NCBI GenBank assembly: GCA_021399445.1
Contig: JAJTUQ010000006.1
Coordinates: 3,782,001 to 3,846,000, forward strand
Reading direction: 5' to 3'
From: Xylogone sp. PMI_703
Lineage: Eukaryota > Ascomycota > Leotiomycetes
Length of the DNA: 64,000 nucleotides
Of the stretch, positions 4,511-63,493 are shown one piece after another. Made by a program: the position numbers and the translations under genes. Positions within the stretch are counted from its first letter, which is position 1, and every line of letters begins with the position of its first letter. The notes below the pieces were generated by a model. It saw only the letters and a program-made list of their open reading frames with translations. It was not told the origin of the DNA and did no database searches.

Positions 4511-5100
4511 TAACTCAGCATATTACTTCTATAACGAGTTTATTATGCCAGTCTATCCATCTATAGTCGGCATTTCGAGACCTCAAGAGGATAGACGTTC
4601 TCCCATTGAAACCGGAGAATAACGTCTGAGTATAGATATCATATTGCATCAATAATGAATATGGATTTATGAAACAATCCTATTATGGTCCTATCATGAC
4701 GGAGCGATATATGTATTATATTATCACGCGCTTTCCACTCCAAATCCCAATGATTCTTCCGTCCGTAATGATGCACTCGTGTTAAACATGCCTACATCAA
4801 ATAACAAAACTTTTAAGAGTCTCCTGACCCAGACAGATTGCCCATCCGAACCAAGTGCTGTTCATTCCTTGGTCCGTAAAAGACGCATAACGCAAGAAAA
4901 TACAGCAAGCGAGCAATAATCACAGTACAACGCTATTGAGTAAGGAGATCCCCATCCAACTAAACCAGCCCTTTCATGTACATGACCATAAATTCATACC
5001 AATCGTTATACATTGTAGCGCCAGCGGATGATATGGCGCAAGAATCAGAAGAAGAGAAAAAAGACTTTTGATGATAAACACCCTCCGATAACACAAATAA
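4511..5100. other. intergenic between convergent genes
   Basis: AT-rich 3' flanks of the retropepsin-like gene and TSC1. No coding region or RNA gene recognised. Confidence 0.5.
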
Positions 5101-33793: not shown

Positions 33794-35146
33794 TCATTGT
33801 TGTAGCGCTTCAAGGCAGTCTTTCACACTCTTAGCTCGCATTTTAGCATATAGCTCAAAGTAATCCTGGACCTCCACCCCGAGAGCACGACAGAATCCTT
33901 CTTTATCAGCGTTTGCACCCCGTGCTTGGTGATTTCGCTGTGTTGTAAGGTCGAGATTTGACTCAAATATGCCCGCTGCGGAAATTGGAAGAAAGTCTTC
34001 ATAGATTATGGGTGCGACATGTAGTATACCGAGCGCTACCAGCTCGTCAAGGTCTATCAATGCAGAGAGTGGGTTCTGAGGGACATGCGCGACGGAATAC
34101 CGGAAGTATGCGAGGTCCCGGCGGCGTAGGGTCTCCCAGTCGTCTGGAAACTCCTCGAACGTGCGCTGGAGAACTTCATTGTATGATTTTGCTCCGTGTT
34201 CTGGCAAAGTCTCACCTAAAGCTTTCGCAAGGAGTCGATCGTACAGCTGCTGTCCTTTTTGTGTCAGAGCAATGCCCCTTTGCTCTACTTCTCCAAAACG
34301 GACTCTGTGTGCTGCAGTCCGAGTTGTGGAATGCGCTGAGATTGCATGAGTATCACTGAAGTAGATCTCTTCCTCGACAGCTTTGAAGCTCGTCTGTCGA
34401 AGCAAAACCGGACAGCGCCGCAACGGAGGGCCTTCTACCCGATTCTTTGCGGCAATCCCTCGTGACATGATTCGACATTGGACTGCATCGATGTCAAGAG
34501 TTCTGGGTGTTAAATGATTGATATGTACTGTCGAGAAAGCAACAACATCTACAAGAATTGGATGCTCCTGCTTTAACATTTCATATGTGTCGTACGAGAC
34601 AGTGGCCAAATGCTGGAATGTAAAACTCTGCAATGCTTCTGTGATAAATTCATCCTCATACTCTTTCACATAATCGCTGGTGGTCTCGAGTATCTCGACG
34701 AGCTCCAGTAACCTGGCAGAAAATATTCGTCGCTTGGAAAGTATTGTCTCAACCAATTCTTTGATATGGGCGCCCAGCATATCAACTCTCAACAGAGTAG
34801 TGAAGACTCTGAATGGATTTACAGCGAGTGCTTCCGTCGTTATTGGTCGAAAAGCCGTGGCGTGGAGAGGGATGCCAGTCGAGGACAAATCGTAGTAGCC
34901 TACAGGAAACATTCCCATGAGCCGAAAAATACGACGAATGATCCGCAATTCTTTCACTGTGCCCAATCTGATTGCCCCATGACGTTCGATTTTAAGTCTT
35001 CCGCCACTGTCATCGAGATTTGAATTAGATCCAGCATTAATCTCTTGCACGATATCTATCAGGTCATTGTAGAGAGAAACTTCTCGTTTGTACAGGTCTG
35101 AAAGAGCCTGTGAAAACTTCGAACGTAGGATATCAGACCGGAGCAT
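33794..35146 (-). CDS. hglS: DUF1338 protein, 2-oxoadipate dioxygenase/decarboxylase-like (copy 1)
   Basis: HglS/YdcJ-type enzymes are Fe(II) dioxygenases that convert 2-oxoadipate to 2-hydroxyglutarate plus CO2 in lysine catabolism. Single exon, 450 aa. The iron- and substrate-binding signatures are present: ERHGAIR (His56 and Arg60, spaced like His70 and Arg74 in the Pseudomonas enzyme), INHLTPRTLDID (His211) and RFGEVEQRG (Glu286/288). Other conserved blocks are GYYDLSSTGIPLHATAFRP, VEGPPLRRCPVLLRQTSFKA and IYEDFLPISAAGIF. It is a clear but divergent paralogue of the gene at 47399. Unlike that copy, no CGG-N7-CCG site is seen upstream, so it may serve lysine breakdown or another route. Confidence 0.9.
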   Translation of the reverse strand: MLRSDILRSKFSQALSDLYKREVSLYNDLIDIVQEINAGSNSNLDDSGGRLKIERHGAIRLGTVKELRIIRRIFRLMGMFPVGYYDLSSTGIPLHATAFRPITTEALAVNPFRVFTTLLRVDMLGAHIKELVETILSKRRIFSARLLELVEILETTSDYVKEYEDEFITEALQSFTFQHLATVSYDTYEMLKQEHPILVDVVAFSTVHINHLTPRTLDIDAVQCRIMSRGIAAKNRVEGPPLRRCPVLLRQTSFKAVEEEIYFSDTHAISAHSTTRTAAHRVRFGEVEQRGIALTQKGQQLYDRLLAKALGETLPEHGAKSYNEVLQRTFEEFPDDWETLRRRDLAYFRYSVAHVPQNPLSALIDLDELVALGILHVAPIIYEDFLPISAAGIFESNLDLTTQRNHQARGANADKEGFCRALGVEVQDYFELYAKMRAKSVKDCLEALQQ

Positions 35147-41453: not shown

Positions 41454-42508
41454 AGTGGAATGAACCTTATTGATAATGGCAATAGCAGCATTTGTATGCA
41501 CTTATGTTTATGTCTTGTGATACGGATAATGTCTCTGTATGCAACTCACGCGCAATAAGCACGGATGGACAAGGTGAGGGAATATAACGGAACTTGAATC
41601 TACCGGATAGGAATCTAACCAATTCGAATCTGGTACAGACAGTTTCTACCATCGGATATCTGGCTTGAGTGTATACAGGTCCTCTTTCGTCTCTGGCAGC
41701 TAGCACAAGCTGGCTTCTCCTCCGTAGAAGAGTAAGAGGAAGTCATAGATCGATGTAACAAAACGCATCTTTGCTTCAGAATGGGGAACAATTCAACAAG
41801 GTTTAGAAATGAATCCTGGCCCACCTCCACATCGCTTTTTACAAACTAGGAATATCAGTAGCGACTCCATGGCCGCATTGGTAAGATTAAAGCTTACCTC
41901 AACATCTAGTCCAACTGCGACCACTTGGAGGAGGTATAATTGATTGGCCTTAAGGTTGGACAAAGGGCTGCCAACGTTACCGATAGTGGCATTCTTTCTT
42001 CGGACCAAGCTCATTGCAGGAGTAGGAGCTCCAGTTCCCATTGTCTCCGTTGTTTACTAGAGAACTAAAGAAAAATGGGTGAGGAAGACGCAAAGAGTCT
42101 AGATAACTTCCAGGAGGTTGACCTAGCCGAAGGCAATTAGTGCTATCTTTTCTACTTGTCTACACTCTCTATGTACTGTACATCTCTATATGAATAGCCA
42201 ATTGACTCTCTCTAATGTGTTCCTACATGCGTAATATCAACCTTACTAAGCGCTCTGACCACTGATGATTGGTAAGTTTTGTAAGCTCTCGCGGCAACGT
42301 TAACCTTAATATCAGAACCTCGCTAGCCAAATTCATAACAAAGCGTATGCTGTTGAATATTTCTGTGCTTCTCAGAGGTTCATTGTATTAAACTTAGGAT
42401 AACAAGACCTAGAACAGGATTGTTATTCCAGAGCCTGGATCGCGTGTGTATGTGACAGGAATGCCGCAAAGAACTGAAGCTTCTGACAGGGCCGGGTCCA
42501 ACCTAATT
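41454..42508. other. intergenic with possible degraded coding sequence
   Basis: On the minus strand, a frame from ATG 42041 (MGTGAPTPAMSLVRRKN) with a good donor GTAAGC near 41897 could lead to a frame containing CASCQRRKRTC, but phases do not join cleanly. Left unannotated as a gene. Confidence 0.3.
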
Positions 42509-44336
42509 CTAATTATTATATTGAGCAAACCTGCTTTTTAATCGAATCCAAGGCCCAAATCTGTAAAATAAGTATGGAACCGTCGTAAAAATAATTCCAA
42601 GAAACCCCAATAATGACAAGGCCCAGTGAACGCCCAGGTTGCGATACATCGGCAGAGATGCTTCGATCATTCCACCAGAAGCAACGTACCTAATCAGTGT
42701 GATCATGGTTAAAGCACTAGCTGCGTAGGTCTCATAACTATCAATCAGGTACATGTATGTAGAGACGAACACCGATAATATGCCAAATCCAAATAGTACT
42801 GATGCCAGAATCGGAGACCAGATACTAATGGTAGGATATGCAGTCCAGCCCATCCAAAACAATGAGATAGGAATAGTAGGAGCTCCAATCATGGCATACC
42901 AGAGGAAAAACTCCGGTGGCAGGCGAGGTGATGCGGTATCGTAAGAAACTTGCAAAACTGCAATTTCCTTTTTCGCCCAATGATATACTAACGGAGTAAG
43001 GGTGACCGACGCCGCCAGTAAGCCTGCTCCAATGCCAACGAACGAAAGACCAGTCAACCCCTGCGAAAGCCCATAAGTGTTGCTAAATACAAAGCTGTAT
43101 CCATCTAGAAATCCGAATAGCATAATATAGATAACAGTCAAGTATGCTGTCCACAACATGATAGCCGGCTCTTTAATAATCATCAGAAAGGGGCGATATA
43201 AAGAGTTGAGCATGCGTTTAGCAAAACCATGACCGTGCAACTCGATGGAAGCAATATAACGCTCATCACCAGTCATTTGACGAAGATGTGTAGCTTTCCA
43301 TTTTAACAAAATTGGTTCGTAGGTTTCAGGTTGGAACAAAATAATCGACGCCAGTACAAGACCGGAGAATATGAGGGTAATCCATTCGGTCCAGCGCCAT
43401 GAGATAACCGAGGATTCAGCAATGAACCCACCGATGATAGGACCAGTAATGGGGCCCATCAAACCGAGAGCTGTTATGATTAGCATCTCGATAATAAATA
43501 AATAACAAGCTAAAATACTTACTTGCAAAAATTGGAAACGCAACCAAGCGATTCATAGGATCCCACATATCCCCTATTGAGCCTCCCACAGTTGATAGGG
43601 GAGACTCGCCGCAGAATCCCGCTAAGAAACGGCAAACAAGCTGACCTGCAACAGATTGTGATAGTCCAGCACCCATCACGAATAGCATATAGAGAGTTAG
43701 GGAACCTATGTAAACAGGGTTCCTCCCGATGGTTTCTGAGATAGGTCCAGCAATCAAGGCGCCGAATCCGAATCCGCATAAGAACTACATCGTTGAATAT
43801 TAGTCTAGTTAACTTCTTATCATGTCGAAGATTGAGAAGACACTCACCAATCCTGTAGCTAGAGCCTCCACAGTTTCGCTCACACCAAACTCGGCCGCGG
43901 CTTGTGGAATGGCTGCCGAATCAATTGAAGCTGCAGTGCCAACGACCAAGGCAATGACGCCAACATTCGCCGTGCAGAGAATCCGCTTTGTCAAAGGCCA
44001 ATTCCGGGGGTTTAACGGATCTCGATCTCCTTCGAAGCCAACGAGAAAGGCCTTGCTAGATGTGTTATCGTGTTCTTGCACAATAACACCCGTGAGTGAC
44101 GCACCTAACCGGGTACCAAATGGCTCGAGTGACGCTGGCTCGGGATCACAGATGTTATCGTCAATTTCTAATGACGTAGATGCTAATGAGGATGCGTAGT
44201 CTGGGTTCAGTTGTGTTTGCTGATTGCTACTATTCAACGCTCGTGCTGTGCTGGAGCTTGTTGTTTTGACCTTATTTTGATCAAGCTGCTCTTGCAGTCG
44301 ACGACCGAGAGCCTGGTACTGGAAAAAAGATTGCAT
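42509..44336 (-). CDS. MFS transporter, DHA1 (drug:H+ antiporter-1) type
   Basis: Three exons from ATG 44336. A 130-residue cytosolic N-terminus ends with DPLNPRNWP, the motif that precedes helix 1 in fungal DHA1 proteins. Intron 1 follows EALATGL and intron 2 follows FPIFA; both joins (GLFLCGFGFGALIAG and PIFATLGLMGPITGPIIGGF) reproduce conserved DHA1 blocks. The loop 2-3 signature is GPISETIGRNPVYI, and RFLAGFCGESPLS matches helix 4. The 3' exon carries the second half, about six helices, with EPAIMLW and GMIEASLPMY. Proteins of this group export drugs, polyamines or secondary metabolites. Nothing in the sequence fixes the substrate. Confidence 0.88.
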
Positions 44337-45297
44337 TTTTCACTTCTGAGACTTAGCAATGAAGATAATTGAGTAGGAAGTAATTTCAATAACTCTATTG
44401 ATATTCTGGTTCGATATATATACAGCCATCATGCTCGTGGTGATGTCGAGTTGATTGACCCATTTTTCTATAATTCCAAATTGTCTCGCAGAGGGTATTA
44501 CGAAGATCCATTTGTCGGCAATAGGCATTATTAACACGAGTTTTCCCTCTTGCCATAGAGAGCGGATCACTTTCAGAATAAAATTATAAGTGAGAAGTTT
44601 ACAATTTGTGCAGCGCAGGTCGTATTTCCGAGTACAAAGGTACTTTCGTTCTAACCGACCGCTAATGATTGGCTAGCGAACACCATTAGTGCCTATGCAA
44701 GAATTCCCAATTCTCGACACAGTTTACCATTTGCCACCGGGCACTTAAGCGCTATTGCTTGCTAGAGTTTCGTGAATTAGAAATTATATCCCTGTGCTAG
44801 AGTCATTCAATCTTTAAACTACCTAGGAATAATTTGTCGGAACAACAGTCCCAATATGGTAAAAGCCAAAGAATTAACTGAATTGACTACCCTATGATGC
44901 AATTACGGTACGATTTTATCCCTTCTCCTGGTAAGCCGCGGCGAATTGTGCGCACGTAACTAATCGTCGGCCTACCCTCTACTCGCATCTCCATATGCTC
45001 CAGCACCACCAAAAGATCTATATCCAGATATGCCATCTTTATATATGTTCTAGCGTATACGCTGGGATATATACGGTATAGCGTCCGACATAACCAATAT
45101 TTACCCTACCCTCTTACATCACTACTTGAACAAAGTATGACCTTGCATACTACAACCTTCTCCCGCACACATTTATGATACGAAAGGTTTTCTAGCTTTA
45201 TCCTTCGTAGCCATATTTTCGCGGGCAGGGTTAATCTGACCTGCCTCTCTTATTAGTCATCTCATCCTAGAGGGAATCAAAGAGCTCACTGGACACT
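44337..45297. other. divergent promoter of DHA1 transporter and bZIP genes
   Basis: No genes recognised. A CGG-N8-CCG lies at 45074-45087, 211 bp upstream of the bZIP ATG; its spacing differs from the exact cluster motif and it may be chance. Confidence 0.4.
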
Positions 45298-46377
45298 ATG
45301 GCGGATTCCACCCCACCTGCCGGGCAATGTTGCAACGACAGCAGAGGATACGATCATACGCAAGCCACTTTTATGCATTCACAATCGTTGAGTCCTCTTG
45401 AAAGCAGTTCAGTGGCAAAAACTAGAGCGGATGGACAGCCTATGAAAAAGCGTGGGCCAAAGCCACGCAATCAGCCTGCCTTGACGAGAAAGCAGGAGCT
45501 TGCAAGGAAAGCCCAAAGAAATCATTGTGAACGAAAAGAATTCTATGTCAAAGCTCTTGAGCAGGAGGTCATTCAATTGAAGCATGATGTAACAGTGCTC
45601 TCAGAACGTTACGAGAATCTAGAAAGAGAAAACGGACAGGTAAAGGGAGCTGCCTGCAACCTGTTAAACAGAAACGCCAGCTTAGAGGAAGAAAACCAGA
45701 GGTTGAGGCAAGTACTAGAACGGCATGAAATTATATTTCCTGCCGCTTCTGAGGAGAGTATTGGTGCGAGTGTCGGCCCTATTTCGTTAGACCCTAGTCG
45801 TTCAATTCTTGATCCACTTGTTGCAGAGACCAGCATATCAAGTGTAACTGCAACACCATCTTCACCACAACGAAACAGCCAGGAACAGCTATTAGAAGGC
45901 ACACAAAATGAGCTTGACTATGAGCAAATAGGCATTGATTTTGTCCTGGCCATCGAAAGACCTTGTTTATGTCACATGCGAGTTAATCCAGAAGATCAGC
46001 TATACGGCCACGCACTAATGGCCTCATGCGTTCCGGGAGTATACCCCGAGATGAACTCAAATACTCCCTCAGATGCCAGTTTTGATACTCCTTCACCAAG
46101 CCTAGAATCCTACACTTTAAGCAAATCCTGTCTCGCCGGCCTGCTTGAGCACAGCAAGCGTCTCAGCCTTAACGGCGAAGTCACCCCTGTCATGGTTTGG
46201 GATATGATTCTGAACTCTCCACGGCTTCCAGAATTCACAGTAACGGATTTTAACAATATTATTGAACAGCTGTCCAAGAAGGTTAAATGTTATGGATTTG
46301 GGGCAGTGTTTGAGGAGTTTGAAGTTCGAGAGGTTATAGAGAATATACTACTGTCCAAGCCTGGACTAGTTAGTTAA
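45298..46377 (+). CDS. bZIP transcription factor, fungal Yap-like class
   Basis: Single exon, 359 aa. Residues about 43-80 form the basic region (KKRGPKPRNQP, then RKAQRNHCERKEFYVKALE), running into a heptad-repeat zipper through about residue 140. The basic region resembles the A-Q-R-x-x-R-E-R-K type of fungal AP-1-like factors but has an unusual Asn-His-Cys. The C-terminal half carries two blocks seen in this class of fungal bZIP: IGIDFVLAIERPCLCH and a terminal region with VTPVMVWDMI and a GAVFEEFEVREVIENILL helix. Targets unknown. It sits 1 kb upstream of the catabolic cluster, but membership is unproven. Confidence 0.88.
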   Translation: MADSTPPAGQCCNDSRGYDHTQATFMHSQSLSPLESSSVAKTRADGQPMKKRGPKPRNQPALTRKQELARKAQRNHCERKEFYVKALEQEVIQLKHDVTVLSERYENLERENGQVKGAACNLLNRNASLEEENQRLRQVLERHEIIFPAASEESIGASVGPISLDPSRSILDPLVAETSISSVTATPSSPQRNSQEQLLEGTQNELDYEQIGIDFVLAIERPCLCHMRVNPEDQLYGHALMASCVPGVYPEMNSNTPSDASFDTPSPSLESYTLSKSCLAGLLEHSKRLSLNGEVTPVMVWDMILNSPRLPEFTVTDFNNIIEQLSKKVKCYGFGAVFEEFEVREVIENILLSKPGLVS

Positions 46378-47398: not shown

Positions 47399-48823
47399 AT
47401 GACACATAATTCTTCAACACGCCAGCACATACCGCGTTCAGACATTCGAGATATCTTCTGTCGGGCTATGTCATTGATGTATGCCGCTGAAGTACCTCTC
47501 TATGGAAAACTTTTGTCACTCGTCGAGCATGTTAATAAGAGAACTATTCAGGACGATCAAGACTTAAGGGAAAGACTGGAGGCTACGGATGACCTGGAAC
47601 GAATCCACCTAGAACGACATGGAGCCATTCGAGTTGGTACCATTGCCGAATTAAGATCAGTACGACGAGTACTTCAGGTTATGGGTATGTATCCCACTGG
47701 ATATTATGATCTTTCATCAGCTGGGATTCCTGTTCATGCTACGTGTTTTCGAGCACATGAAGCATCAGAGCTATCCAAGAACCCCTTTCGCATGTTTGTG
47801 TCACTGTTGAGAGTCGAATTTATCACATCAAGTGCACTTCGAAAAGATGTAGTAGATATTCTATCTTGCCGTCGGATCTTTTCAACGCGGTTGTATGAAT
47901 TACTGGAGATCTATGATCAGTATGGCGGCTTGGTCAAAACTGAGGCTGAAGAGTTCGTTTGTGAAGCTAAAAAAAGTTTCCGATGGCATTCCACCGCAGC
48001 AGTTTCTCAAAACAAATATCTAAAGCTACTTCAAGAGAGCCCCGTTTTAGCAGATATTGTTGCTTTTAAATCACCTCACATCAACCATCTTACACCAAGA
48101 ACATTAGACATCGACGCAGTCCAATCAGGTATGCGGGACTGGGATATACCTCTTAAGGAATATGTCGAGGGCCCGCCAAAACGGACTTGTCCAATTCTTC
48201 TGCGGCAAACAAGTTTCAAAGCCATTGAAGAATCCATCGGTTTCCCTAGTAAAGCTGATGATGCTGTCAAAATCATCTCCGGAAGCCACACCGCTCGCTT
48301 TGGAGAGATAGAGCAAAGAGGTGCGGCACTCACTATTAAGGGGCGTCAGCTATACGATTCACTACTCCAGTCAGCATTAGACGAGGCTATTACTGCGATA
48401 GATGGGGATGCATTTTCGCGAAAGTTTGCAGAATTTCCGGATTCATGGGAGCAGATGCGTACTGAAGGATTGGCATGGTTTCAATATTACATTAATCCCG
48501 AGAAACTACAATCACAGATTGTTGAGTCCGATGACTTCGATTATTTGGTTAGAGAAGGATATATAATGTATGAGCCGATTGTGTATGAGGATTTTCTTCC
48601 TGTCAGTGCTGCTGGTATATTCCAGAGCAACTTATCGCAGCACAAGCATCCAAACGGAATGGCAGCAAAATCGAACATTGAAAATGGCAGGCATGGTTTT
48701 GAAAAAGCTCTAGGTGCTAGTGTGGCGGATGAAATGGCTCTCTACCAGAGAGTGCAGGACGATAGCGTAAAGAAATGCCGAGAATGGATATATAAAGTGC
48801 GAAATAGAGAATATCTGGGCTAG
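47399..48823 (+). CDS. hglS: DUF1338 protein, 2-oxoadipate dioxygenase/decarboxylase-like (copy 2, cluster member)
   Basis: Single exon, 474 aa. Retains all signatures of the Fe(II)-dependent HglS family: ERHGAIR with His74 and Arg78, INHLTPRTLDID with His230, and RFGEIEQRG with Glu303/305. The distance between the two His (156 residues) equals that between His70 and His226 of the Pseudomonas enzyme. Other blocks are GYYDLSSAGIPVHATCF, LLRQTSFKAIEE and YEDFLPVSAAGIF. The family reaction is 2-oxoadipate + O2 to 2-hydroxyglutarate + CO2. 2-Oxoadipate is also the product of the animal 2-aminomuconate route, so its place beside the aminomuconate genes makes sense as a terminal step. A CGG-N7-CCG promoter site supports co-regulation. 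It could instead act on the unsaturated analogue 4-oxalocrotonate. Confidence 0.92.
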   Translation: MTHNSSTRQHIPRSDIRDIFCRAMSLMYAAEVPLYGKLLSLVEHVNKRTIQDDQDLRERLEATDDLERIHLERHGAIRVGTIAELRSVRRVLQVMGMYPTGYYDLSSAGIPVHATCFRAHEASELSKNPFRMFVSLLRVEFITSSALRKDVVDILSCRRIFSTRLYELLEIYDQYGGLVKTEAEEFVCEAKKSFRWHSTAAVSQNKYLKLLQESPVLADIVAFKSPHINHLTPRTLDIDAVQSGMRDWDIPLKEYVEGPPKRTCPILLRQTSFKAIEESIGFPSKADDAVKIISGSHTARFGEIEQRGAALTIKGRQLYDSLLQSALDEAITAIDGDAFSRKFAEFPDSWEQMRTEGLAWFQYYINPEKLQSQIVESDDFDYLVREGYIMYEPIVYEDFLPVSAAGIFQSNLSQHKHPNGMAAKSNIENGRHGFEKALGASVADEMALYQRVQDDSVKKCREWIYKVRNREYLG

Positions 48824-49499: not shown

Positions 49500-51527
49500 T
49501 TAAAACTTATGAATTATTGAGTTTCTAGTGAGTTTTCGACACGCCTTTCCGAAGAAGTAGAACAGGATTAGTCCAACAAGAGCAATACCTACAGTCAACA
49601 TTCCGACGGTGATGATAGGTGGAATAAATCCATTTTTCTCCAACCAGGGATTGATGAAATATGTCATTCCGTACTAAATGCTATATAAGATAAATCTTCC
49701 ATTAAGGGAGTATATAAGAAATCATCACTCACACCGAATGAGTTCTTTCCGATGGTTGCCACGACCATAATTTCCCCAGCAGCAGGCTTGTAAGAATCGA
49801 TAGCGTACTATAGATTAACTGAGTTAGAGGATATATCGTCCTTCTCACGGAAGTTCTTACAGTCGTGCCAATGGTTGGAATAGCAACAACAATGATTCCC
49901 GTGAAACCAAAACCCACCATGACAATGGACTCCCAAGACCAGAATCGGTCCATTCCGAGGGCAGAAATCTGTTTATAGTAGTAAAATAAGCGACGTCTGA
50001 ACCGATAATAGCTTTTGTAACATGATTAAATAAAAACACCCACCAGCATTCCTATCACACAGATAATGATGAACGGAATGAAAGAAAAGAGCCGCATTTC
50101 GGGTTCCCGAATTCCGTTATTTCTCCTTGTCAAAGCCATAGATGTCCAGTCCGACACAGGCCCTGCGGTTGCAAGTCCGATAATGCCACCAGCCATGAGC
50201 GCAAAGTTTGTAAAACCCACGGCTTGTGGCTCAAAATTGTATGGAGTGCGTGAGAATGCCTGGGACTGGACCAAATTGAGGACGAGCAGGCATGATGCCC
50301 CAAAAGTAACGCACAGTGCTCCAAACAGGACTATGGGGAAAAATGCCAGATACAATGGCGTCAAGAATTCCCGCAGTGAATTCTTGAAGGTGACCATGTC
50401 AAGCTTGCCGACGATACCCCATCGCTGCTTCAGGCTTGGATAGCCATCGCCCACGAGGTTAGGATATTGTACAGCTTCCGACCCATCGGCTGCCGTTATA
50501 CTCTGCTTTTCACCGTCTGACTTCTTCGATACAAGCCCACTATTGGCTTCACCTTGGGGTGGTACGAGACCAACAACTCTTTCAATACTATATCCCTCCG
50601 TAGTTCGATGATATTTGGTTTCAGGAAATGCAATTAGCATGGTTAAAAAACTAACCTATAATTATAGGTCAGTTTAAAGTCATGCGCTTCATAAGACGTG
50701 ACCTACACCTTGCAAGATTGTCGACAGCCAGAAAAACCACTGCCACGAGACATCAGCGCCAATGCTACCAGAAACAATCGGCCCAATCCAGGCGCCCATG
50801 AAATAGGCCCAACTTCATTGAAGTTAGCTGATACTCTGTACGATAATATCTGACTGGACTTACAAATATGCTCCCATCCATGTCCCTCTCTCGTGCAGAA
50901 ACATGATATCAGAGATCACAACCGGCATCAAGCTTTCACTTGTTGACGCCCCAATTCCTACAAGCACTCTGCCTCCGAGAAATGAACTATATGATTTGCT
51001 TGAAGCTTGCCAAATATGTGAAGCTACACAAATAAGGCAGCAAATAAGAGCTACCGGGCGTCGTCCGAAGATGTTTGCACAGGGTATGATCAGGAGATTC
51101 GCATATCCTAGAGACAGGATACAGGCGCCGGTCTAGATAGATAGCAATATTTAACCTATACTCACAACTGTCTGCATAGGACTGAGGAAGGAATCAATTG
51201 CTCACCAGTGCAGCTACCCTTGATACAGAAGTATTAAAGTATTCCATGAAGATCGGTGTCAGTGGTGCGATAGATAGCGTTGTGAAGTTCCCAAGGAACA
51301 TGAAGTATAACATGTTCCCTAGGGCTAGATACTTCCATGTCCGTGACCAGTTCTTGGTCTCTAATTAGCACTTATCCAAACCACGGATTGATTTAAGTGA
51401 GGAGAAAGAAATTTACCAATGGATCATGCACATCAGTAGAAGGGCGTGGCACTAGTACAATATCATTATCTCCCTTTCCATGGCGATCGTGGGCAAGGTC
51501 CTCTGTGCCTGGAATAGAATCCGCCAT
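49500..51527 (-). CDS. MFS transporter, DHA1/Hol1-like, cluster member
   Basis: Starts at ATG 51527 (MADSIPGTEDL), ends at TAA 49500-49502, and is cut by about seven short introns. Translation of the pieces gives the Hol1-like pattern: DVHDPL and NWSRTWKYLALGN before helix 1, TTLSIAPLTPIFMEYFN, TGACILSLGYANLLIIP, the loop motif GRRPVALI, GGRVLVGIGASTSESL, FLHERGTWMGAYF, and W-Q-W-F-F-W. A long central loop (ETKYHRTTEGYSIERVV onwards) is followed by the second half, with FALMAGGIIGLATAGPVSDW. Members import or export small cations, aromatics and drugs. Divergence from the cluster activator, and shared CGG-N7-CCG sites, suggest uptake of the pathway substrate; the substrate itself is not shown. 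Confidence 0.85.
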
Positions 51528-52743: not shown

Positions 52744-55214
52744 ATGACTTTATCCGAGCGCCAAAGAGTGTGGAGGGCTTGCGATGCCTGTCGGAAGAAG
52801 AAAATCAAATGTGATGGCCAACAACCGTGTCAAAGCTGCTGTCGAAACAACATCGACTGTGCTTATGCTGATCCGCTGGAAAGTATGCGAGGAATTGACG
52901 CTATGTTAGCTCCCCTGGAGGCAACAGAAAGACACTAGAGAGTTATAATACTGATACTTCAACTAGGTATGTCGCGAGACTCGAGAATAAGATCCGATCG
53001 ATGGAACAGCGTCTGCTGGAGCTTAGTGATAAACAACCTGAGGGCGGATGCGAGTCAGTAGGCGACGTCTTGATTCCATCACTAGTGCGTGAAAGCCAGG
53101 ACCCCCAACTTCAACAAAATACCCAGACCCTTCCAACAGAGGATGACGTCCAACTCGCTCATCAGCGCGATGAAACAGCGACTGGTATCACAGAAAGGCA
53201 GAACGGCCGTGACGTAGAAGTCGCGCCCACTCCCCAGCAACAGCTACAGCAAAGGCCGCAAAGTTCCAACGACTCTGGGTGAGTATTCTATTACTATGTA
53301 CGGAATTTACTATTAAGTACAACTCGTAGTTCTCTCGAGCTGGCGAATGCACAGCTGCCTGTGAACGAACGGCTGGAGGAGGAGGATGCACACTACCCGA
53401 TGAATGGCCACAACTCTGCGCCAAGTAATCCCAACAGCTTGCTACCAATGGGATCTCTAGGTGATTCCGAGGATACCGCCATTCTTGATCAATCACCGCA
53501 GCAAAGAGTCAGAAACCTGCCTGATTCTTTAGCGAGAGCATTGATCGATTTGTTTTATAAAACAATATTTCCAATGTTCCCAATAATCAGTGAATATGAT
53601 TTCCGAAGGCAATATGCGAACTATGATACATCTTCCCGGGACCAGAAGACTGGACTCTCTTTTTTATTGCCAGCGCTATTGGCTGTTTCGGCACCTCTTT
53701 TGCAACCTAGCCATCCTATCTTTGATGAACTTGGTAATCAACCTTACCAGTCTCTCGACCTTGGCTCAATTTTTTATTCACTCGCCATAGAGGAAAGGTT
53801 CGGCAATCCCACATCCGGTCCCGTCGATGACGACTCTAGACGTTCAATGAATATTGTCATTGCTCAAGGCCTTCTTAGTCTCTATCTTGTTGAGAAAGGA
53901 AATGCTAATGATGCCTGGGTGACTGTTGGCCATGCAGTAAGGCTATACCATGCATTGAACTTGGAGGATACTACGGAAGTGAGAACAGATTATAATAATC
54001 TGCGATGGTGTCTCTACACTCTTGATTGCTCTCTTTCGACTGTTCTTCTAAAACCACTAGCTATGGATGAGGTCGAATATGATGCCGACATGTCTACTTC
54101 TGCTGAACGAGTTTCAGGGGAGGTACCTGATACAGAGCAATGGTTCCCTGTCATTACGAATGTTCATATTACCCTGGGTAGGGTATATCGGGCGATCCGT
54201 CCTCTGAGGAGCCGCGATAAGCTTCGTAGCCTAAAATCTAATGACGCTCTCAAATCATCTATACAGAAACACGATTCAGAATTAGAGAACTACTTCACTG
54301 AGCAAGTCTTACCCAAGATTAAAAGCACTCCTTCCTGGAGTAAGGCAATCGGGCTACAAAATATTGCCATCTCATCGTATCATGTCGGACTAGTCCTCCT
54401 CTATGGCCGATTTATTCAAAGTTCTGAAATAGCAACTGCCGAAGCCTATTTACGTTGCGCTGAGGCGGCGTCCAATTGTATCAATTTTGCACCAAATCTG
54501 ATTGCTACTGTTCCAACTAGTCATTTTGTGATCCAACAGTATCGTGCACTCTATGTCAGTATGAATGTGCTGCTATACTGTATGAGATTTTCTCGACATG
54601 TAAGCTTCACTGCCCATGCGTGGCCTGATCTCGAGAGAGGGCTTGAAGTGCTCCGGAATCAGAAGATCCAGTGGCCAGAAATTGAGAAATATCGACTACT
54701 CACCGAGGAAAAAATGGAGCGAACCAGGGTCGAGCTCAATCAGCATGAGCTGGTCCGTTCTGTATTTGACGATTACACAGCGCGATATTATGCACAACAT
54801 TCTCCAGGAACCTCTAGGCATCAATCAGAAAGCCAAAGTGATAACTATGGGATACCTGACGAAGGCACATTTAATCAAAGATCCACTACATCAGAGAAGA
54901 GGACTTCTCCGAATCACATAAATTCGGAAGGACCACGAAATTCAGTTTCTAGATTAGGGTGTTCAGCGAGCGAAAATGGTAGAAACATGCCGGTAAAATA
55001 TAGAAAAATATCACATCAAGCGACCGGATCCATGGAAGAGCCTGTCCTCGGAATAGATAGACACTTCATATCATCTTACGATAATACTAGTACTGCAGAC
55101 TTTCTAATCCCAGAGCTTCAGCCCTCCGCACTTGACCTGGAAACGTCTCAGTTATTCGACGACTTACTTCTCATGCCAGATGCCGGCCACTACATGGTAC
55201 AAATCGACGAGTAA
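52744..55214 (+). CDS. Zn2Cys6 transcription factor, probable cluster activator
   Basis: Three exons. ATG 52744 opens MTLSERQRVWRACDACRKKK; the zinc cluster CDACRKKKIKC-x5-CQSC-x6-C lies at residues 14-40. A 60-odd-nt intron (donor GTTAGC near 52906) leads to a coiled coil (YVARLENKIRSMEQRLLEL), then a Gln-rich linker. A second intron near 53281 precedes the large exon with the fungal transcription factor domain: LIDLFYKTIFPMFPIISEYDF, then LLSLYLVEKGNANDAWVTVGHAVRLYHAL and LRWCLYTLDCSLS. It ends at TAA 55212-55214. It sits between the transporter (divergent) and the dioxygenase (convergent, 168 bp). Inverted CGG half-sites in the neighbouring promoters are the natural binding sites for such a factor with a coiled-coil dimeriser. 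The inducer, presumably a pathway intermediate, is inferred. Confidence 0.88.
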
Positions 55215-55382: not shown

Positions 55383-56212
55383 TCAATACGGAGGAGCAAT
55401 TGCCCCGCAGAGTTTACATTCCCGACTCTTCTCATTAGTTTGCCAATCCTGGATTATGACCTTCAGACTCTGCTCAATATTATCACACAAAAATGACTCT
55501 TCTCGAATAATTGACGGCGTATCCTGATGCGCAGCCTTATTGGGACAATACCAGCGTAGACGGTCAATACTTTCAAGGCCTCGCTGTCGTTCCATGACTA
55601 GACCGAGTGTCCCCGGCTTGCGAATCGGACTATGGGGAGTGTTTCCTGATGACAGAATATAAGCAGTTGATCCTTTCCAGTCTTCCAAATATTAAAAGAT
55701 GACGATACCTTTCAAAAGGTACATCTCTCCTTCGTCTATCTCGATATCTCGAAACTGGTCACCGTTTTCTACGACTTTGAGAAGTAGCTTGCCTCTAATT
55801 TGGTAGAACCATTCCTATATATGAAATTCATTCCAACTATTTAGTTTTATCCTACCATATATTGATTGGCCTTTAGAAAATTCAGGGTGCACACCTCCGT
55901 TTGGTTAACTATATGATCAGATTAACAAATGCTATTTAGTTTGGTATTTAAAAAGTATGATCACTCACTATGATAATCGTTTCTTGTGTTTGGTCCGGCG
56001 ACCGCTTGTAAAATAAAATCATTTCCCATGAAAAGGGCCAAATTGCTGACTGGAGGTTTCAGTTTGTCTAAGTTTGCATCGATCCACGAAGATAATGCAA
56101 ACGGTTCGGGGAAATTGAAGGATGCTGTTATAGACGCTGCTACAGAGGGCTCAGATTCAATAGATCCAAGGGTACGAGGTACCGTTGTAGACGATGTTGT
56201 CGTGGTGGCCAT
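55383..56212 (-). CDS. BNA1: 3-hydroxyanthranilate 3,4-dioxygenase
   Basis: Opens the ring of 3-hydroxyanthranilate to 2-amino-3-carboxymuconate 6-semialdehyde. Exons 56212..55969, 55910..55897, 55814..55709 and 55645..55383 give 208 aa. The cupin iron site is intact: GPNTRNDYH supplies the first His, [13 protein letters not shown] the Glu, and [12 protein letters not shown] the second His. The second exon is only 14 nt and encodes the conserved stretch between the first His and the Glu. The C-terminus carries RECKLCG, half of the rubredoxin-like C-x-x-C metal site of microbial enzymes, with further Cys in LRWYCPN and FLCDN. An N-terminal extension of about 35 Ser/Thr-rich residues is unusual. 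Divergent from the ACMS decarboxylase gene, which points to catabolism, not NAD synthesis. Confidence 0.93.
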
Positions 56213-56791
56213 AGTGTAGATAAATTTTAAAACTATATTCGGAATGGGCTATATAGTTTACAGTTTTCTGATCAATAAGCTTTAAAGGTTAAAGTTGATA
56301 AAATGTGAACGGTGCCTGGAAACTTTTAAAGCTACGTGATGACCGTTAACCGGCTATTACATCCAGGCTTCAGGGCCAGTCGGAGAGTGATCCGGTGGTC
56401 TACTATGGTGTTCGGATTGGCTACTTAGTGGATTTTGGCCAATTAGGAGAAGCGAGGAGAATGACAGGGTTACGAATTATTTATTATCCCAACACCGCAG
56501 TAGAGTTCTTGTCTAAGATCATATGGATTAGATCTTAAGGAACGGATACTAGCCGGTAATCATAATAGTGTCTATGAGTGACTAATTAATTTGTCGAGCT
56601 CTCTGGGTGTCCTAGTCGGTAGCCTAACCTAGAGAATTGCCACAATAGTCTAAGATTCTAAATATGCAAGACAAGATGCCACTTCCGTATGCAGATAAAG
56701 AAAGGATACCTCACTCAGACTCCATAAGTTTATATTTCATTCCTTGGTATACCATACCATAACAACACATGCATCATCCTGCATTATATTT
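56213..56791. other. shared promoter of dioxygenase and ACMS decarboxylase
   Basis: 579 bp between divergent ATGs. Contains CGG-N7-CCG at 56543 and a CGG-N8-CCG (CGGAGAGTGATCCG) at 56381-56394. Confidence 0.6.
56543..56555. promoter_or_regulatory. CGG-N7-CCG site, dioxygenase/decarboxylase promoter
   Basis: CGGATACTAGCCG, 237 bp upstream of the decarboxylase ATG and 331 bp upstream of the dioxygenase ATG. Confidence 0.7.
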
Positions 56792-58038
56792 ATGGACCGC
56801 ATTTCTGGCTGTTTCTGTTCAAAATCAGACCACAATGAGATTTCCAATGGCGGTAGTGCACCTAGTTCTTCAGTGCGGATTGATATTCACACCCACATAA
56901 TGCCCCCATCTCTACCGGATTTCAGCGACGACGAGTCAGAGTGGGTAAATCTCCGGCCACACGAATCGAAAGACAACCCAAAAGATGCACTAAAAGTAGA
57001 TATGTATGTCGGAAGCAAATTTTTTAGAACTGTGGAACCCAATTGCTTCGACCCGGAGACTCGGCTTAGGGATATGGATGCTTCTTATATTGATATTCAA
57101 GTTCTGAGCACAGTCCCAGTTCTATTTGCATATGATAAGAATGCTGTACTCGCAGCACGATTAGCAAGTTATCTCAACGATCATTTGGCTTCAGTTTGTC
57201 TAAAATATCCTGAGCGGTTTGTGGGTTTGGCAACTGTACCACTTCAAGATGTGAAATCATCGGTCAAAGAACTCCACCGCGCGAAAAATGAACTTGGCCT
57301 AAAAGGTGTCGAAATTGGTACAACGATCAACGGAAAGAATCTGGATGATAAAGCTTTTGATCATTTTTGGGAAGCATGTGAAGAGCTCGATTTCCCTGTT
57401 TTTGTTCATCCGCTGGGATATGAGCTGCAGAAAGAGAATGCAGTGCGCTGGAACGATTACTGGTCAGCGTGGCTTATTGGAATGTAAAGCCAAATTCATA
57501 TATCCTATAAGCTATTGAATGAGAAGGTTAACTTATATTTAGGCCATCCGAAACTGCACTCGCAATTCATTCAATCTTGTCATCTGGTATTCTGGCTCGA
57601 CATCCCAAGCTCCGATTTTGCTTTGCACATGCTGGCGGCGCATACTTACCTCTCCTGGGAAGGATACAGCACGGATACAAATGCCGTCCAGATCTGGTAG
57701 CCAAGAACTCCCACGGAATCTCACCGATACAGTGTCTCCAGATTTATAAAGATAATATTTGGCTTGATAGCCTTGTTCATGACGTTGACCTGTTAGAGTA
57801 TATATGCAAAAAGCTTGGATCTGACAGGATCATTATGGGGAGTGATTATCCCTTCCCACTAGGGGAAATGCCTATCCCGGGTCAGATGCTGACAACGGAT
57901 ATCACGGTGAAGAAACTGTTTTCGGACGTCGAGAGAGGACGGATGCTAGGTGGAAATGCGGTTGATTTTTTACGGCTAGAGGACATGATTCTAGACATCT
58001 GTTATAAAAAGAAAGCGGAAATAAATAAAGAGAGCTAA
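56792..58038 (+). CDS. ACMSD: 2-amino-3-carboxymuconate-6-semialdehyde decarboxylase (amidohydrolase 2)
   Basis: Decarboxylates ACMS to 2-aminomuconate 6-semialdehyde, diverting it from quinolinate and NAD. Exons 56792..57483 and 57543..58038 give 395 aa. ATG 56792 (MDRISGCF) precedes a 38-residue tail before the metal motif [10 protein letters not shown]. Zinc ligands follow the ACMSD pattern: His-x-His, [22 protein letters not shown] and the Asp of [13 protein letters not shown]. The blocks [39 protein letters not shown] and [16 protein letters not shown] track animal ACMSD closely, more so than the resorcylate decarboxylases in the same superfamily. The 59-nt intron falls inside WLIGMPSET and restores it exactly. 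Neighbours encode the enzymes immediately before and after it in the pathway. Confidence 0.93.
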
Positions 58039-58207
58039 ACGTAAAATATTCGACTACAAGTCATTCATATGATAGTAATTCTATAGTATATTTAAGTTAT
58101 AGTTTGCAATAGTTAAATATCAAGATCAATATAATAGTCTTTAAGTTACAGTTTGATTAGACACTGATGTTTTCACATTACAACTAATTCTCAGCAGAAC
58201 AGCGAAT

Positions 58208-58221
58208 CGGATATTCTTCCG
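58208..58221. promoter_or_regulatory. CGG-N8-CCG variant, aldehyde dehydrogenase promoter
   Basis: CGGATATTCTTCCG, 102 bp upstream of the dehydrogenase ATG. Same CGGATA start as other cluster sites but one extra spacer base; may be a weaker or chance site. Confidence 0.45.
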
Positions 58222-58322
58222 TAAGTCTTGACATTTCTTTGATACATAAATGAATTCTCCTAGCCAGTTACTGCCTAATATCGCAACCTCGCTCTATAAT
58301 ACAGCGCCAATCATTCGCTACT

Positions 58323-60019
58323 ATGGATCTTATTTCAAAGTTATGGGAAATTGATCAGCCTGAAGTGGCAGAGGATTTCCTTCACACAGCGTCAACACAG
58401 CCACTCCACTTGGCAAATTTTATCAACAACGAATTTTCAAAGCCTTCGGATTTAAACTGGCTGAATTCTCATAACCCACGATCCGGGAAGGTTATATTCA
58501 AGATCCCGAGAAGTTCGAAGCTAGATATCGATCGAGCTGTAGATGCAGCGGCTACAGCCTTTCCTAGCTGGTCCAAGACTACCCGTCAATACAGATCCAG
58601 ATTGCTACAACGGGTAGCAGATATTCTAGAAGAGAAAAGGGATACATTTGCTCTTTGGGAAAGTATCGACCAAGGAAAAACGTTCGAAAGAGCTAGGATA
58701 GAGGTGGATCGTGCAATCGCAAATTTTAGGTATGTGTCGCGGAGACCATACTAGGAAGGAAACTAAGAGCCAACATTATTCCTGAAGATACTTTGCTACC
58801 TATATTTTACACCAAAATGACGCGGTAAGATTCATCGACGGAGAACCTTCAACCTTGACATATGAGCATCGATCGCCTGCCGGTGTCTTTGCTCTCATTT
58901 CCCCTTGGAATATGCCTATCTACCTCCTGACGTGGAAAATCGCACCGTGTTTGGCATTTGGCTGCACAGCCGTTGCCAAACCAAGCGAGATTACTAGTAT
59001 CAGTGCATTCCGTAGGTGAAAAATCACCTTCACTTTCTCCAAAATCTTACTGAAATTTATGAACCCACCGTGCAACAGTACTGGCGGGGGTATTTGGTGA
59101 AGCAAAAGTCCCTCCCGGAGTCATTAATATCGTATTTGGTGATGGGGTTGGGGCTGGTGCCCCTTTGGTCCAGTCCCCCCGTATCCAAGGTGTCTCTTTC
59201 ACGGGAGGGACAGTTACAGGTATTCGGATTCGTCAGGACACCGCAGCGGATATTGGAAAACATCTCTCGCTGGAACTTGGTGGGAAGAATCCAACGCTAG
59301 TATTTCCTGACGTAGATCTCGAAAAAGCTGTCCCACTTGCTGCAAGAGCAGCTTTTGAGAATACTGGCCAGGTAAGTGAAATATGACTTTGCCGAGTCTT
59401 CATGACCTAACGTACATACTCATGAGCCTGACAGATCTGCCTCTGTGGTTCACGGATATATGTACATCGAGATATCTATCAGGATTTCCTAACACAAATA
59501 GTAGCCTACGTAACTAAACATTACGTTATCGGAAAGACGATGGGGCCTGTCGTATCTCTAATTCATTATCACAAAATTCGCTCTTACCTTATTCAGGCGC
59601 AAGAAGAGGGTGGTACTTTTCAAATCGGATCCGTTCCACCAGAGACACCGGTAGATGGTTATTGGATTCCTCCGATTGTACTGACGGATCTCGCTGCGGA
59701 TAGTAAAGTGGTGCAAGAGGAGATTTTTGGGCCAGTGGTCACAATATCTACTTTCGATTCTGAGGAACAAGCTATTTTACGTGCAAATGACAATCCAAAC
59801 GGACTTGCAAGCATCGTATTGACGGATGATGTGTCCCGTATGCGGCGGGTTGGGGAGCAACTCGAAGCCGGCCTAGTATGGATCAATTGCTGGCTCGTTC
59901 GTGAGCTTGGTACCCCCTTTGGTGGAATGAAATCATCGGGAATGGGTCGTGAAGGCGGCGATTATAGTCGTGATGTTTTCACTCATACTCGTACTCTCCA
60001 CATCCCATCAAGCTGGTAA
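58323..60019 (+). CDS. 2-aminomuconate 6-semialdehyde dehydrogenase (ALDH8A1/AMSDH type)
   Basis: Oxidises 2-aminomuconate 6-semialdehyde to 2-aminomuconate with NAD. Exons 58323..58729, 58788..59011, 59079..59371 and 59435..60019 give 502 aa in frame. ALDH hallmarks: [26 protein letters not shown], the general-base Glu in [10 protein letters not shown], and nucleophile Cys310 in GQICLCGSR. The C-terminal [25 protein letters not shown] has the N-C-W-L-x-R-E/D-L block of AMSDH and ALDH8A1, whose Arg binds the substrate carboxylate. That block separates it from betaine-aldehyde and other ALDHs, though 2-hydroxymuconic semialdehyde dehydrogenases are close relatives. It starts 284 bp after the decarboxylase stop. 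Confidence 0.92.
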
Positions 60020-60058
60020 ATAGCGCGATTACGAACATAGAACCTTTTTTTTGGTCCA

Positions 60059-60071
60059 CGGATACCATCCG
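60059..60071. promoter_or_regulatory. CGG-N7-CCG site, deaminase promoter
   Basis: CGGATACCATCCG, 213 bp upstream of the deaminase ATG. Matches the 56543 site in the first seven bases. Confidence 0.7.
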
Positions 60072-60283
60072 AATACTGAGAGGCTGTTCGGTAGCTTATT
60101 AATAGTAACTATCTTTCATCCGCCCCGCATCCAGAACAAGAATCATCTTCATAATCGAATTCTTCCTCTGGCTACTTCTCAAAGAATAAACCATACAATA
60201 CCCTGAGTAAAGCGCCCTTTTCTCCATCAGTTTCTATTATCCCTACTGGTCTCTTTATCTACGTGTGTATCGTCAATTGAGCA

Positions 60284-60751
60284 ATGGCAGATTCTCGAGC
60301 CTTCGTTCTACCCTCGTCAACGCACGCTCAAGGCCTGGCAAATTATCCACATGCACGGATCGTGCCAGGTCCAGGCAATGGAATGAATATCTACGTCTCC
60401 GGGACATCCTCTCGCCGCGCCGATGGAACATTTGTTGGCGCTACTAAAAACTCCGAAGGCGGCCTCACCCTAAAAATTGGTTCTCAAACCGCTCAAGTCT
60501 TTGCAAATATTGATACCGTCATCAAGGGGGCCAGTGATGGGAGAGCCGGGCTAGAAAATGTTGTCGATGCAACAGTTTTCCTCGTCAACCTCCCCCGCGA
60601 TTATGCCGGAATGAATGCAGAGTGGAATAAAGTCTGGCCTGATCGCACGAAAGCTCCAGCGAGGACAACGGTTGAAGTACGAGGGTTGCCGAATCCAAAT
60701 ATTCTTGTTGAGATCAAATGCACAGTCTACGTTCCACCAACCACAGACTAA
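60284..60751 (+). CDS. RidA-family 2-aminomuconate deaminase
   Basis: Converts 2-aminomuconate to 4-oxalocrotonate and ammonia in bacteria (AmnD/NbaF). Single exon, 155 aa, ATG 60284. Family features: NYPHARIV, the VSGTSSRR-x-DGTF block that marks the aminomuconate deaminase subgroup, VVDATVFLVNLPRDYAGMN, the conserved Arg in APARTTVEVRGLP, and the Glu in ILVEIKCTVYVP. General RidA proteins (enamine/imine deaminases) lack the GTSSRR block, so the specific assignment is supported by both sequence and position, directly after the dehydrogenase (264 bp) and with a cluster regulatory site in between. It is slightly longer than bacterial forms because of a small insertion near residue 30. Confidence 0.9.
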   Translation: MADSRAFVLPSSTHAQGLANYPHARIVPGPGNGMNIYVSGTSSRRADGTFVGATKNSEGGLTLKIGSQTAQVFANIDTVIKGASDGRAGLENVVDATVFLVNLPRDYAGMNAEWNKVWPDRTKAPARTTVEVRGLPNPNILVEIKCTVYVPPTTD

Positions 60752-61868: not shown

Positions 61869-63493
61869 TCAAGGTAAACCATTCGGTCGTCTTATCCTTG
61901 TTTTTTCGCTTCCCAAGAACATCTGTGGGTATATCCAACTTGATCTTGTCCATTTTCTACCTTCCCAGACATCTTCCCATGGCATTTCCCCATTATCCTT
62001 CAAACGCTGGCTTATCTCTTCATTCGCTTTCCAGACTCTCAAGACATTTTCCCCTAATAGCTTTCTAACCTGTGCATCGGTTGCACCTCGTTTCATTACA
62101 GCTTCTATGAGTTTAGGGTAGGTTGCGACGCTCTCCAAGCCATTCGTGAAAACCGTGATAGCGTCAAAGTCTCCCCCAATTCCTACGTGGTCCCACCCTG
62201 CTACTTCAACAATATGGAAGATATGATCCACTACCGCTGATATATCAGCAGCGTCGGGCTGTCGAACGTTTACAAAGTATGGTACGAATGTAATCATAAT
62301 AACACCTCCATTGCGGGATAGCATGCGAAGAACGTGATCGGGGGCGTTCCGTGCATGGTCACTAATACTCCGCGAGTTTGAATGACTGAAGATAACTGGG
62401 CTTCTACTGATCTGAAGCGCATCTTCCATAGTTTTTATCGACACATGGCTCAGATCAACTAGGAGACCAAGACGATTCATTTCTAGTACAGCGGTCCGCC
62501 CAATGGAGCTTAGGCCGTTATCAGTGCCACCCGCTGTAACGTGGGTTGCTGAGGTCGCGAAAACATTGTCGCAGTTGTGTGTAAGGGTAATGTAACGTAC
62601 TCCGAGCTCATACACCTCCCTGATGGCTGCTATGGACCCATCAATTTGATGTAAACCCTCAATCCCGATCATCGATGCGATCTTCCCTGACTCAAACGCT
62701 GGCATCACACATGAAGCGTTTCTGCAAAATTCAAGCTGTCACAAGTTTCAGCATAGTAAGAATATATGAAAGCCTATGCTCTATCTTTACCTCTTCGTAC
62801 TCATCAAAAAGCCTTTTGGAAACATCGATCTGCTCCAGGGTATCTCGGAGTAAGTGCTAGAAGTTACCATCAGCAAGCAAGCCTCTTCGCTTCTACATGT
62901 CCAAAACAGATTGGAAAGAAGCTTTGGATGGGGTCACATGCTGTTGGAACGTTAAAATCGTCTGCAACATCATCAACACAAGGTATATAAGCACTCCAAA
63001 ACTGGCCTCCCACTCTTCCGGCCCTCAGTTTCACTAAATCCGTAGTGCTAAGAAGTCCTTCCCGGAACGTAAACCGCCTGTCGTAGATGTGGTTCTTCAG
63101 CTCTACTCTGATCAATGCTGGCAAATCGTTATGTCCATCGATTAACGGAGTTGTACTCATCACATGCTTAGTCCGTGCCGCATAGTCAGTGGGTGTGATG
63201 CTAGGATCTCGCCTCAGGAAGTAGCCCAGACTCAAGACAAAAAGAATTGTGCCAAAAAGTCGATACGCTTTCCCGGGCTTCAGTCGACGTAGATACGTGG
63301 TGTCTTGACGCCGCACAACAAGTTGCCGATGAGGCGAAACATCGGCGTTACGGCCCCTTCCATAGACAGTAAGTTGAGACTCGGACCCAGTTTGGTTTCT
63401 ACGGTATGAAACTATTCGAGGGTAACGTGGATCTTCCCCTTCAGGTCTTGGGGCATTCACAGCTACGGCTAAATCATGCTCCCCGGAAGCCAT
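61869..63493 (-). CDS. membrane dipeptidase (renal dipeptidase-like, peptidase M19)
   Basis: Zinc dipeptidase. Exons 63493..62938, 62843..62791 and 62735..61869 give 491 aa. A basic cytosolic N-terminus leads to a membrane anchor at about residues 75-93 ([18 protein letters not shown]), so this is a type II, outward-facing enzyme. Zinc and catalytic motifs: [11 protein letters not shown] (His-x-Asp), [11 protein letters not shown] (bridging Glu), [11 protein letters not shown] and [11 protein letters not shown] (His ligands), and HVGIGGDFD. The 53-nt middle exon encodes [17 protein letters not shown] and fits in phase. Adjacent to the aminomuconate cluster, but without its promoter motif; a role in supplying tryptophan from peptides is only speculation. 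Confidence 0.9.

Follow-up and report, generated by a model that had tools for sequence, protein, structure and literature searches.

The window analyzed in this study, a 64,000-nucleotide (64-kb) stretch of the genome of the ascomycete Xylogone sp. PMI_703 (contig JAJTUQ010000006.1, positions 3,782,001 to 3,846,000), contains four adjacent genes whose products are predicted to act in the degradation of 3-hydroxyanthranilate. This gene cluster spans positions 55383..60751, from the stop codon of HAO (55383) to that of AMDA (60751), and all four genes are intact at the following coordinates:

55383..56212, minus strand: HAO, 3-hydroxyanthranilate 3,4-dioxygenase; 208 amino acids; exons 56212-55969, 55908-55895, 55814-55709, and 55645-55383
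56792..58038, plus strand: ACMSD; 395 amino acids; exons 56792-57483 and 57543-58038 (one intron)
58323..60019, plus strand: AMSDH, 2-aminomuconate-6-semialdehyde dehydrogenase; 502 amino acids; exons 58323-58729, 58788-59011, 59079-59371, and 59435-60019
60284..60751, plus strand: AMDA, RidA protein of the 2-aminomuconate deaminase type; 155 amino acids; without intron

The splice sites of these models were hand-picked and predicted from the DNA alone, without an RNA check; all introns follow the GT..AG rule, and every reading frame closes. HAO, in which the motif DYHINQTEEWFY is split across three exons, is oriented divergently from ACMSD, AMSDH, and AMDA, and the gene order on the DNA equals the order of the predicted reactions. 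A preliminary description of this DNA had placed four adjacent genes at these positions and had quoted five subgroup motifs from their products; the intact spliced models and family matches far beyond chance confirmed the former, and all five motifs were found.

The assignment of the four proteins was based on comparisons with protein families and solved structures. HAO matched the Pfam family 3-HAO with 144.5 bits (2.5e-42), and its best solved match was the HAO 1zvf (126 bits, 1.6e-35), which we take to be the yeast enzyme; it scored above the cut-off of TIGR03037 and below that of NF009763. ACMSD reached 259 bits (8.6e-76) with the solved ACMSD 2wm1, presumably the human enzyme, compared to 180 bits with a bacterial ACMSD, presumably that of P. 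fluorescens, 103 bits with 5-carboxyvanillate decarboxylase, and 81 bits with gamma-resorcylate decarboxylase. Decarboxylases of the superfamily other than the solved ACMSDs thus score much lower (103 bits at most). Furthermore, the motifs HxH, FVHP, FAHAGG, GRI, and YWxxW as well as one ten-residue stretch align with 2wm1, including residues to which we ascribe roles in metal and substrate binding; no NCBIfam model matched this protein. As a control, the next-best amidohydrolase of the genome was scored in the same way, yielding up to 423 bits with uracil-5-carboxylate decarboxylases and 79 bits with ACMSD. Since this paralogue prefers the uracil-5-carboxylate decarboxylases, the score test for ACMSD is able to discriminate.

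For AMSDH, the solved AMSDH 4i1w was matched with 6.5e-105, and the top five solved sequences are all named AMSDH (349-355 bits), closely followed by a betaine aldehyde dehydrogenase (345 bits); the arginines that we presume to bind the substrate align with those of the solved AMSDH. AMDA matched the solved 2-aminomuconate deaminase 6izh with 67 bits (1.4e-17), compared to 43 bits for the next RidA protein, and SGTSSRR is present in both AMDA and 6izh, while AMDA scored below the cut-off of both NCBIfam RidA models. By match score, AMDA is therefore a predicted 2-aminomuconate deaminase, closer to that subfamily than to other RidA proteins. Taken together, the four proteins are placed in their expected subfamilies by match score, AMSDH by a narrow margin only, and the predicted chemistry from 3-hydroxyanthranilate to 4-oxalocrotonate put forward in the preliminary description is well supported.

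The preliminary description had, moreover, considered this cluster to be without a described fungal counterpart. For the four genes, this novelty claim fails because the same cluster in Ascomycota was already described by Martins et al. 2021 (PMC7842363). According to that paper, "the 3-hydroxyanthranilate catabolic cluster" consists of 3HAO, ACMSD, and AMSDH together with a recurrent RidA gene, AMDA, and is widespread in Ascomycota, with examples in Aspergillus, Fusarium, Metarhizium, and Penicillium. Further syntenic genes named there are those for a BVMO, an SDR, and an amino acid transporter. The cluster of A. terreus, which is without AMDA, is up-regulated on salicylate, and for a second version of the cluster, present in some aspergilli, a more recent horizontal transfer was suggested. 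The steps after 2-aminomuconate were left unsettled, with decarboxylation and hydration offered as one option. 3-Hydroxyanthranilate is also one of eight fungal central ring-opening intermediates in FAMeDB (PMC13094099). The Xylogone locus resembles the published cluster (PMC7842363) in that the same four genes lie side by side and a second HAO for NAD synthesis is encoded elsewhere; it differs in its flanking genes, which encode an HglS-family protein, a Zn2Cys6 regulator, and a transporter. We consider it probable that the locus is an intact copy of the published cluster.

The preliminary description had recommended searching for the same neighborhood in other fungi, and co-location of two of its genes was recovered among the relatives of ACMSD (best 120 of 7163 matches) and AMDA (best 120 of 918 matches). 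Co-location was scored when two matches lay on contigs of equal size in bases, with the expectation determined by shifting the sizes by 1-25 bases. Among the listed matches, 21 ACMSD/AMDA pairs (own pair included) were found on equal-sized contigs, compared to 0.18 expected, and this number is a lower bound because the best-120 lists show one contig per sequence cluster. The locus tags of ACMSD and AMDA are close to each other in P. argentinense (4059/4057), P. herquei (7245/7247), P. malachiteum (509/507), P. psychrofluorescens (6662/6664), Cercospora kikuchii (588300/588500), and Pestalotiopsis fici (02126/02122), with a looser spacing in P. macrosclerotiorum (2312/2301). Over 120 listed relatives, the pattern HxHI was present in at least 80, and those displayed without it have late starts that suggest truncation; the narrower pattern DxHxH, with 32 of 120, proved too narrow.

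A second dioxygenase for NAD synthesis, which the preliminary description had proposed to look for, was identified on contig C12 as a BNA1-type HAO with the usual CxxC pairs and 46% identity to the HAO of the window. Furthermore, the genome contains one match to quinolinate phosphoribosyltransferase (QPRTase; contig C1) and kynureninase matches at three places. Since a separate BNA1-type HAO, QPRTase, and kynureninases are present, the HAO of the window need not serve NAD synthesis. A second cluster-type HAO is located on contig C11 (62-70% identical to that of the window, exon by exon), and both cluster-type enzymes are devoid of the second cysteine of the first CxxC pair. In these two proteins (window 55383-55645; C11 locus L027, 4975-5250), WYCPN(K/A) and a short insertion replace the CxxC of the C12 enzyme, and the second metal site may therefore differ. 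A match on contig C23 was rejected as an HAO, being 22% identical to the HAO of the window over one stretch only. While a second AMDA is encoded on contig C2 (81% identical to that of the window), the next-best ACMSD match in the genome is only 29% identical and no second ACMSD orthologue was found, so that a second full cluster in this genome, for which the C11 HAO and the C2 AMDA had been candidates, was rejected.

Upstream of HAO, the window encodes a set of genes that includes two members of the HglS family (2-oxoadipate dioxygenase/decarboxylase, DUF1338):

52744..55214, plus strand: Zn2Cys6 transcription factor (Zn_clus 46 bits, Fungal_trans 34 bits; start and end only)
49540..51527 (ends approximate), minus strand: transporter of the MFS/sugar-transporter superfamily, with several introns (Sugar_tr 41 bits on a 90-residue piece)
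47399..48823, plus strand: HGLS2, HglS-family protein; 474 amino acids; without intron
33794..35146, minus strand: HGLS1, second HglS-family protein; 450 amino acids (PF07063, 452 bits)

The Zn2Cys6 factor is probably the regulator of the cluster; within the transporter, the piece 50026-50640 yielded no Pfam match. HGLS2 ends 6,560 bases from HAO, with the transporter and the Zn2Cys6 regulator between them, and it matched PF07063 with 485 bits (3.4e-145) and the solved hydroxyglutarate synthase 6w1g with 428 bits. HGLS1 lies 20,237 bases from HAO with other genes in between, and its membership in the cluster is uncertain. In the 50.1-Mb genome, three HGLS genes were found, two of which are in the 64-kb window and the third on C2; for three genes placed at random, the chance that at least one falls within 7 kb of the cluster is about 0.001, a value computed after the fact. 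In the characterized enzyme, Arg74 sets the specificity, and an HHE metal triad and a Val402-Ser403 loop are named (PMC7286885). HGLS2 keeps ERHGAIR (with the specificity residue Arg74), HINHL, GEIEQRG, and EDFLPVSAAG (with the Val402-Ser403 loop), the exact metal positions being deduced from these motifs. It thus shares the metal-site motifs, Arg74, and the loop with HglS, yet the known role of HglS is in the lysine catabolism of bacteria and plants (PMC7286885), whereas HGLS2 adjoins genes for aromatic-amine degradation. In the open-licence literature, as judged from search listings and the passages cited here, no published link of HglS/DUF1338 to the 3-hydroxyanthranilate pathway or to fungi was found; text searches yielded neither DUF1338 nor HglS in PMC13094099, and neither DUF1338 nor hydroxyglutarate in PMC7842363.

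The association of HGLS with the cluster was also observed in other fungi. Among the best 120 of 8000 HGLS matches, 9 (own included; 8 of the 119 others) were found on a contig equal in size to that of a listed ACMSD or AMDA, compared to 0.4 expected. Named cases are P. psychrofluorescens, A. parasiticus, A. sydowii, and Pleurostoma richardsiae, in addition to four further contigs. In P. psychrofluorescens, the locus tags of HGLS (6659), ACMSD (6662), and AMDA (6664) lie within five of each other. In A. parasiticus, AMDA and HGLS sequences are joined in one annotated protein (P0250). A true AMDA-HGLS fusion was rejected in favor of the more likely merged gene model: the AMDA part loses the match to its relatives at residue 142, so that its end is missing, and the HGLS part begins where its relatives have their start codon. 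Even as a merged model, it implies that AMDA and HGLS are adjacent in A. parasiticus.

For the phylogenetic analysis of HGLS, 55 rows were used, i.e., 52 hand-chosen from the 119 listed others and 3 from this genome, with the fragment P0258 dropped and P0250 trimmed to its HGLS part; rows without a co-location label are unobserved rather than negative. HGLS2 was placed in a 16-row clade (SH-like approximate likelihood-ratio test [SH-aLRT] support 98), 8 rows of which are co-located, while HGLS1 and the C2 copy group together outside this clade on long branches, with unsure placement. In P0242, the specificity arginine is kept and the adjoining residue changed. The HGLS protein P0244, 64% identical to that of the window, originates from a 7.49-Mb contig filed as a metagenome-assembled genome of Kocuria palustris; a Penicillium protein adjoins it in the tree, and the contig is probably a mislabelled fungal one.

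From the observed protein families, intact reading frames, adjacency, and co-location in other fungi, we infer a route whose substrates, order of flow, regulation, and all steps after AMDA are predictions from sequence, while its steps one to four would follow the chemistry established for these enzyme families. HAO would open the ring of 3-hydroxyanthranilate, which may be formed from tryptophan by way of kynurenine or stem from an external aromatic amine, and ACMSD would decarboxylate the product ahead of its cyclisation to quinolinate. AMSDH would then oxidize the semialdehyde to 2-aminomuconate, which AMDA may deaminate to 2-hydroxymuconate/4-oxalocrotonate. The route is probably under the control of the Zn2Cys6 factor and probably supplied by the neighboring transporter. 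The resulting C6 acid could be converted to 2-oxoadipate by a candidate reductase encoded outside the cluster, and HGLS2 may turn 2-oxoadipate into 2-hydroxyglutarate and CO2, the carbon of which would return to central metabolism as 2-oxoglutarate. Two genes next to the paralogues described above are candidates for the missing reduction. On C11 (locus L027, C11:57000-66999 of a 159-kb contig), an OYE-type ene-reductase gene (3143-4489, plus strand; 527 bits to the solved protein 7fev) lies about 0.5 kb from the HAO gene (4975-5826, minus strand), with a Zn2Cys6 gene nearby. On C2 (locus L028, C2:424500-434499), a nitroreductase-family gene (6123-6812, minus strand) lies about 0.7 kb from the second AMDA gene (4907-5416, minus strand). 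Both are leads only, because the genome-wide base rates (for OYE, 30 match stretches at about 21 places; for nitroreductase, 7 at 6 places) make chance neighbors plausible.

A comparison with bacteria and animals indicates which part of this route may be particular to fungi. All four genes are present in 61 of the best 80 (of 413) bacterial AMDA loci, which we take to represent the nba-type clusters, with AMSDH-AMDA-HAO-ACMSD as the commonest order (45/80) and without any HGLS (0/80). However, the fetched loci cover only 5-20 kb (60 of the 80 at least 20 kb), and genes farther off would therefore be missed. The aldolase DmpG (PF07836) was found in all three bacterial genomes tested out of the 80, at a distance of about 2 kb to AMDA in two cases and outside the fetched locus in the third, whereas the fungal genome yielded no DmpG match in a search that did not extend to other aldolase families. 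While the core four genes are shared with bacteria, the lower end of the pathway thus appears to differ, given that HGLS is missing from the 80 bacterial loci and DmpG from the matches in the fungal genome. In animals, the kynurenine-pathway genes are unclustered and the ACMSD branch leads to glutaryl-CoA, yet the fungal ACMSD is nearer to 2wm1 than to the bacterial enzyme (259 vs 180 bits). Slightly short of an even chance, in our view, is the broader proposal of an ascomycete cluster lineage with its own HglS, in which tryptophan or aromatic-amine carbon enters central metabolism via 2-oxoadipate and 2-hydroxyglutarate. It is an equally tentative suggestion that such an ending would be neither the aldol route of bacteria nor the glutaryl-CoA route of animals.

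With regard to the four genes, AMSDH is the assignment with the lowest margin by score (10 bits over betaine aldehyde dehydrogenase, 355 vs 345); of its 40 NCBIfam models, the 25 shown all stayed below cut-off, and the VREL motif and the neighboring genes carry much of the assignment. Whether HGLS2 acts downstream in a fungal route ending via 2-oxoadipate and 2-hydroxyglutarate seems to us about evenly balanced. The match to 6w1g, the conserved specificity arginine and loop, the two of three HGLS genes in this window, the co-location in other fungi, the locus tags of P. psychrofluorescens, and the genome without a DmpG match speak for it, while several observations weigh against it. The cluster itself is without a reductase gene, and HglS is not among the syntenic genes named in the consulted part of PMC7842363. 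Two of the co-location contigs are short (7,098 and 7,754 bases), so that their equal sizes could be due to chance; in the wider HGLS2 clade, 11 of 20 rows are without co-location, and across the tree the co-location label changes 9 times compared to 8.6 in shuffles, i.e., it does not cluster. Moreover, a cysteine replaces the specificity arginine in the co-located P0251. Finally, for fungal homologues, the authors of the HglS study expect activity on 2-oxoadipate, raise lysine catabolism, and ask for further study (PMC7286885). This lysine expectation, together with the definition of HglS in lysine catabolism (PMC7286885), the rows without co-location, and the fact that neither the C2 copy nor HGLS1, at a distance of 20 kb, adjoins such a cluster, makes it quite possible, if somewhat doubtful, that HGLS2 is a lysine/pipecolate-catabolism gene that merely adjoins the published cluster, whose route would end otherwise. 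Such a bystander role is, however, hard to align with the 8 other listed HGLS matches co-located with ACMSD or AMDA (0.4 expected), the locus tags within five in P. psychrofluorescens, and the gene model of A. parasiticus that merges AMDA with HGLS.

Alternatively, the route could end as in bacteria, where 4-oxalocrotonate is decarboxylated, hydrated, and then split by an aldolase into pyruvate and acetaldehyde. While the shared four genes in the bacterial AMDA loci, the proximity of DmpG to AMDA in two of three genomes, and the option of decarboxylation and hydration offered in PMC7842363 are in line with this ending, the lack of a DmpG match in the fungal genome, other aldolase families not having been searched, argues against it, and we consider it unlikely. 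In the boldest form of our proposal, HGLS2 would act straight on 4-oxalocrotonate, the product of AMDA, without prior reduction, which could account for the immediate neighborhood of AMDA and HGLS implied for A. parasiticus, the cluster without a reductase, and the departure of P0251 from the specificity arginine. Nevertheless, HGLS2 keeps the HglS specificity residues, and within the substrate panel tested, P. putida HglS was active only on 2-oxoadipate (PMC7286885), rendering this form quite improbable. That the four genes do not form this pathway at all, with a decarboxylase of the resorcylate/dihydroxybenzoate type and a housekeeping RidA protein, a grouping that the preliminary description had named as a refutation, might be suspected since both proteins belong to broad superfamilies and neither is named by an NCBIfam model at cut-off. 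The match scores favor the preliminary description here (259 vs at most 103 bits for ACMSD, with a discriminating control paralogue; 67 vs 43 bits for AMDA), and both genes sit with HAO and AMSDH; we regard this possibility as very remote.

Thus, of the interpretation in the preliminary description, the pathway reading stands and the novelty does not; it followed the route no further than 4-oxalocrotonate and overlooked the HglS-family genes of the same window. Since the four-gene cluster was already known, its presence in Xylogone sp. PMI_703 adds one more ascomycete member only. The HglS-family neighbor matters more: the ending of the fungal pathway is left unsettled in PMC7842363 and the role of fungal HglS in PMC7286885, and the gene link between HglS and the cluster joins both questions into one. 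If true, one clade of fungal DUF1338 proteins would gain a role outside lysine breakdown, and we put this extension forward as a new, testable proposal that may equally well hold or fail.

Beyond these genes, the region between HGLS1 and HGLS2 (40285-46377) encodes an NmrA-like protein, an MFS transporter, and, with a score under the Pfam cut-off, a possible bZIP-type factor; on the other side of the cluster, a gene for an M19 membrane dipeptidase follows (61869-63493, minus strand).

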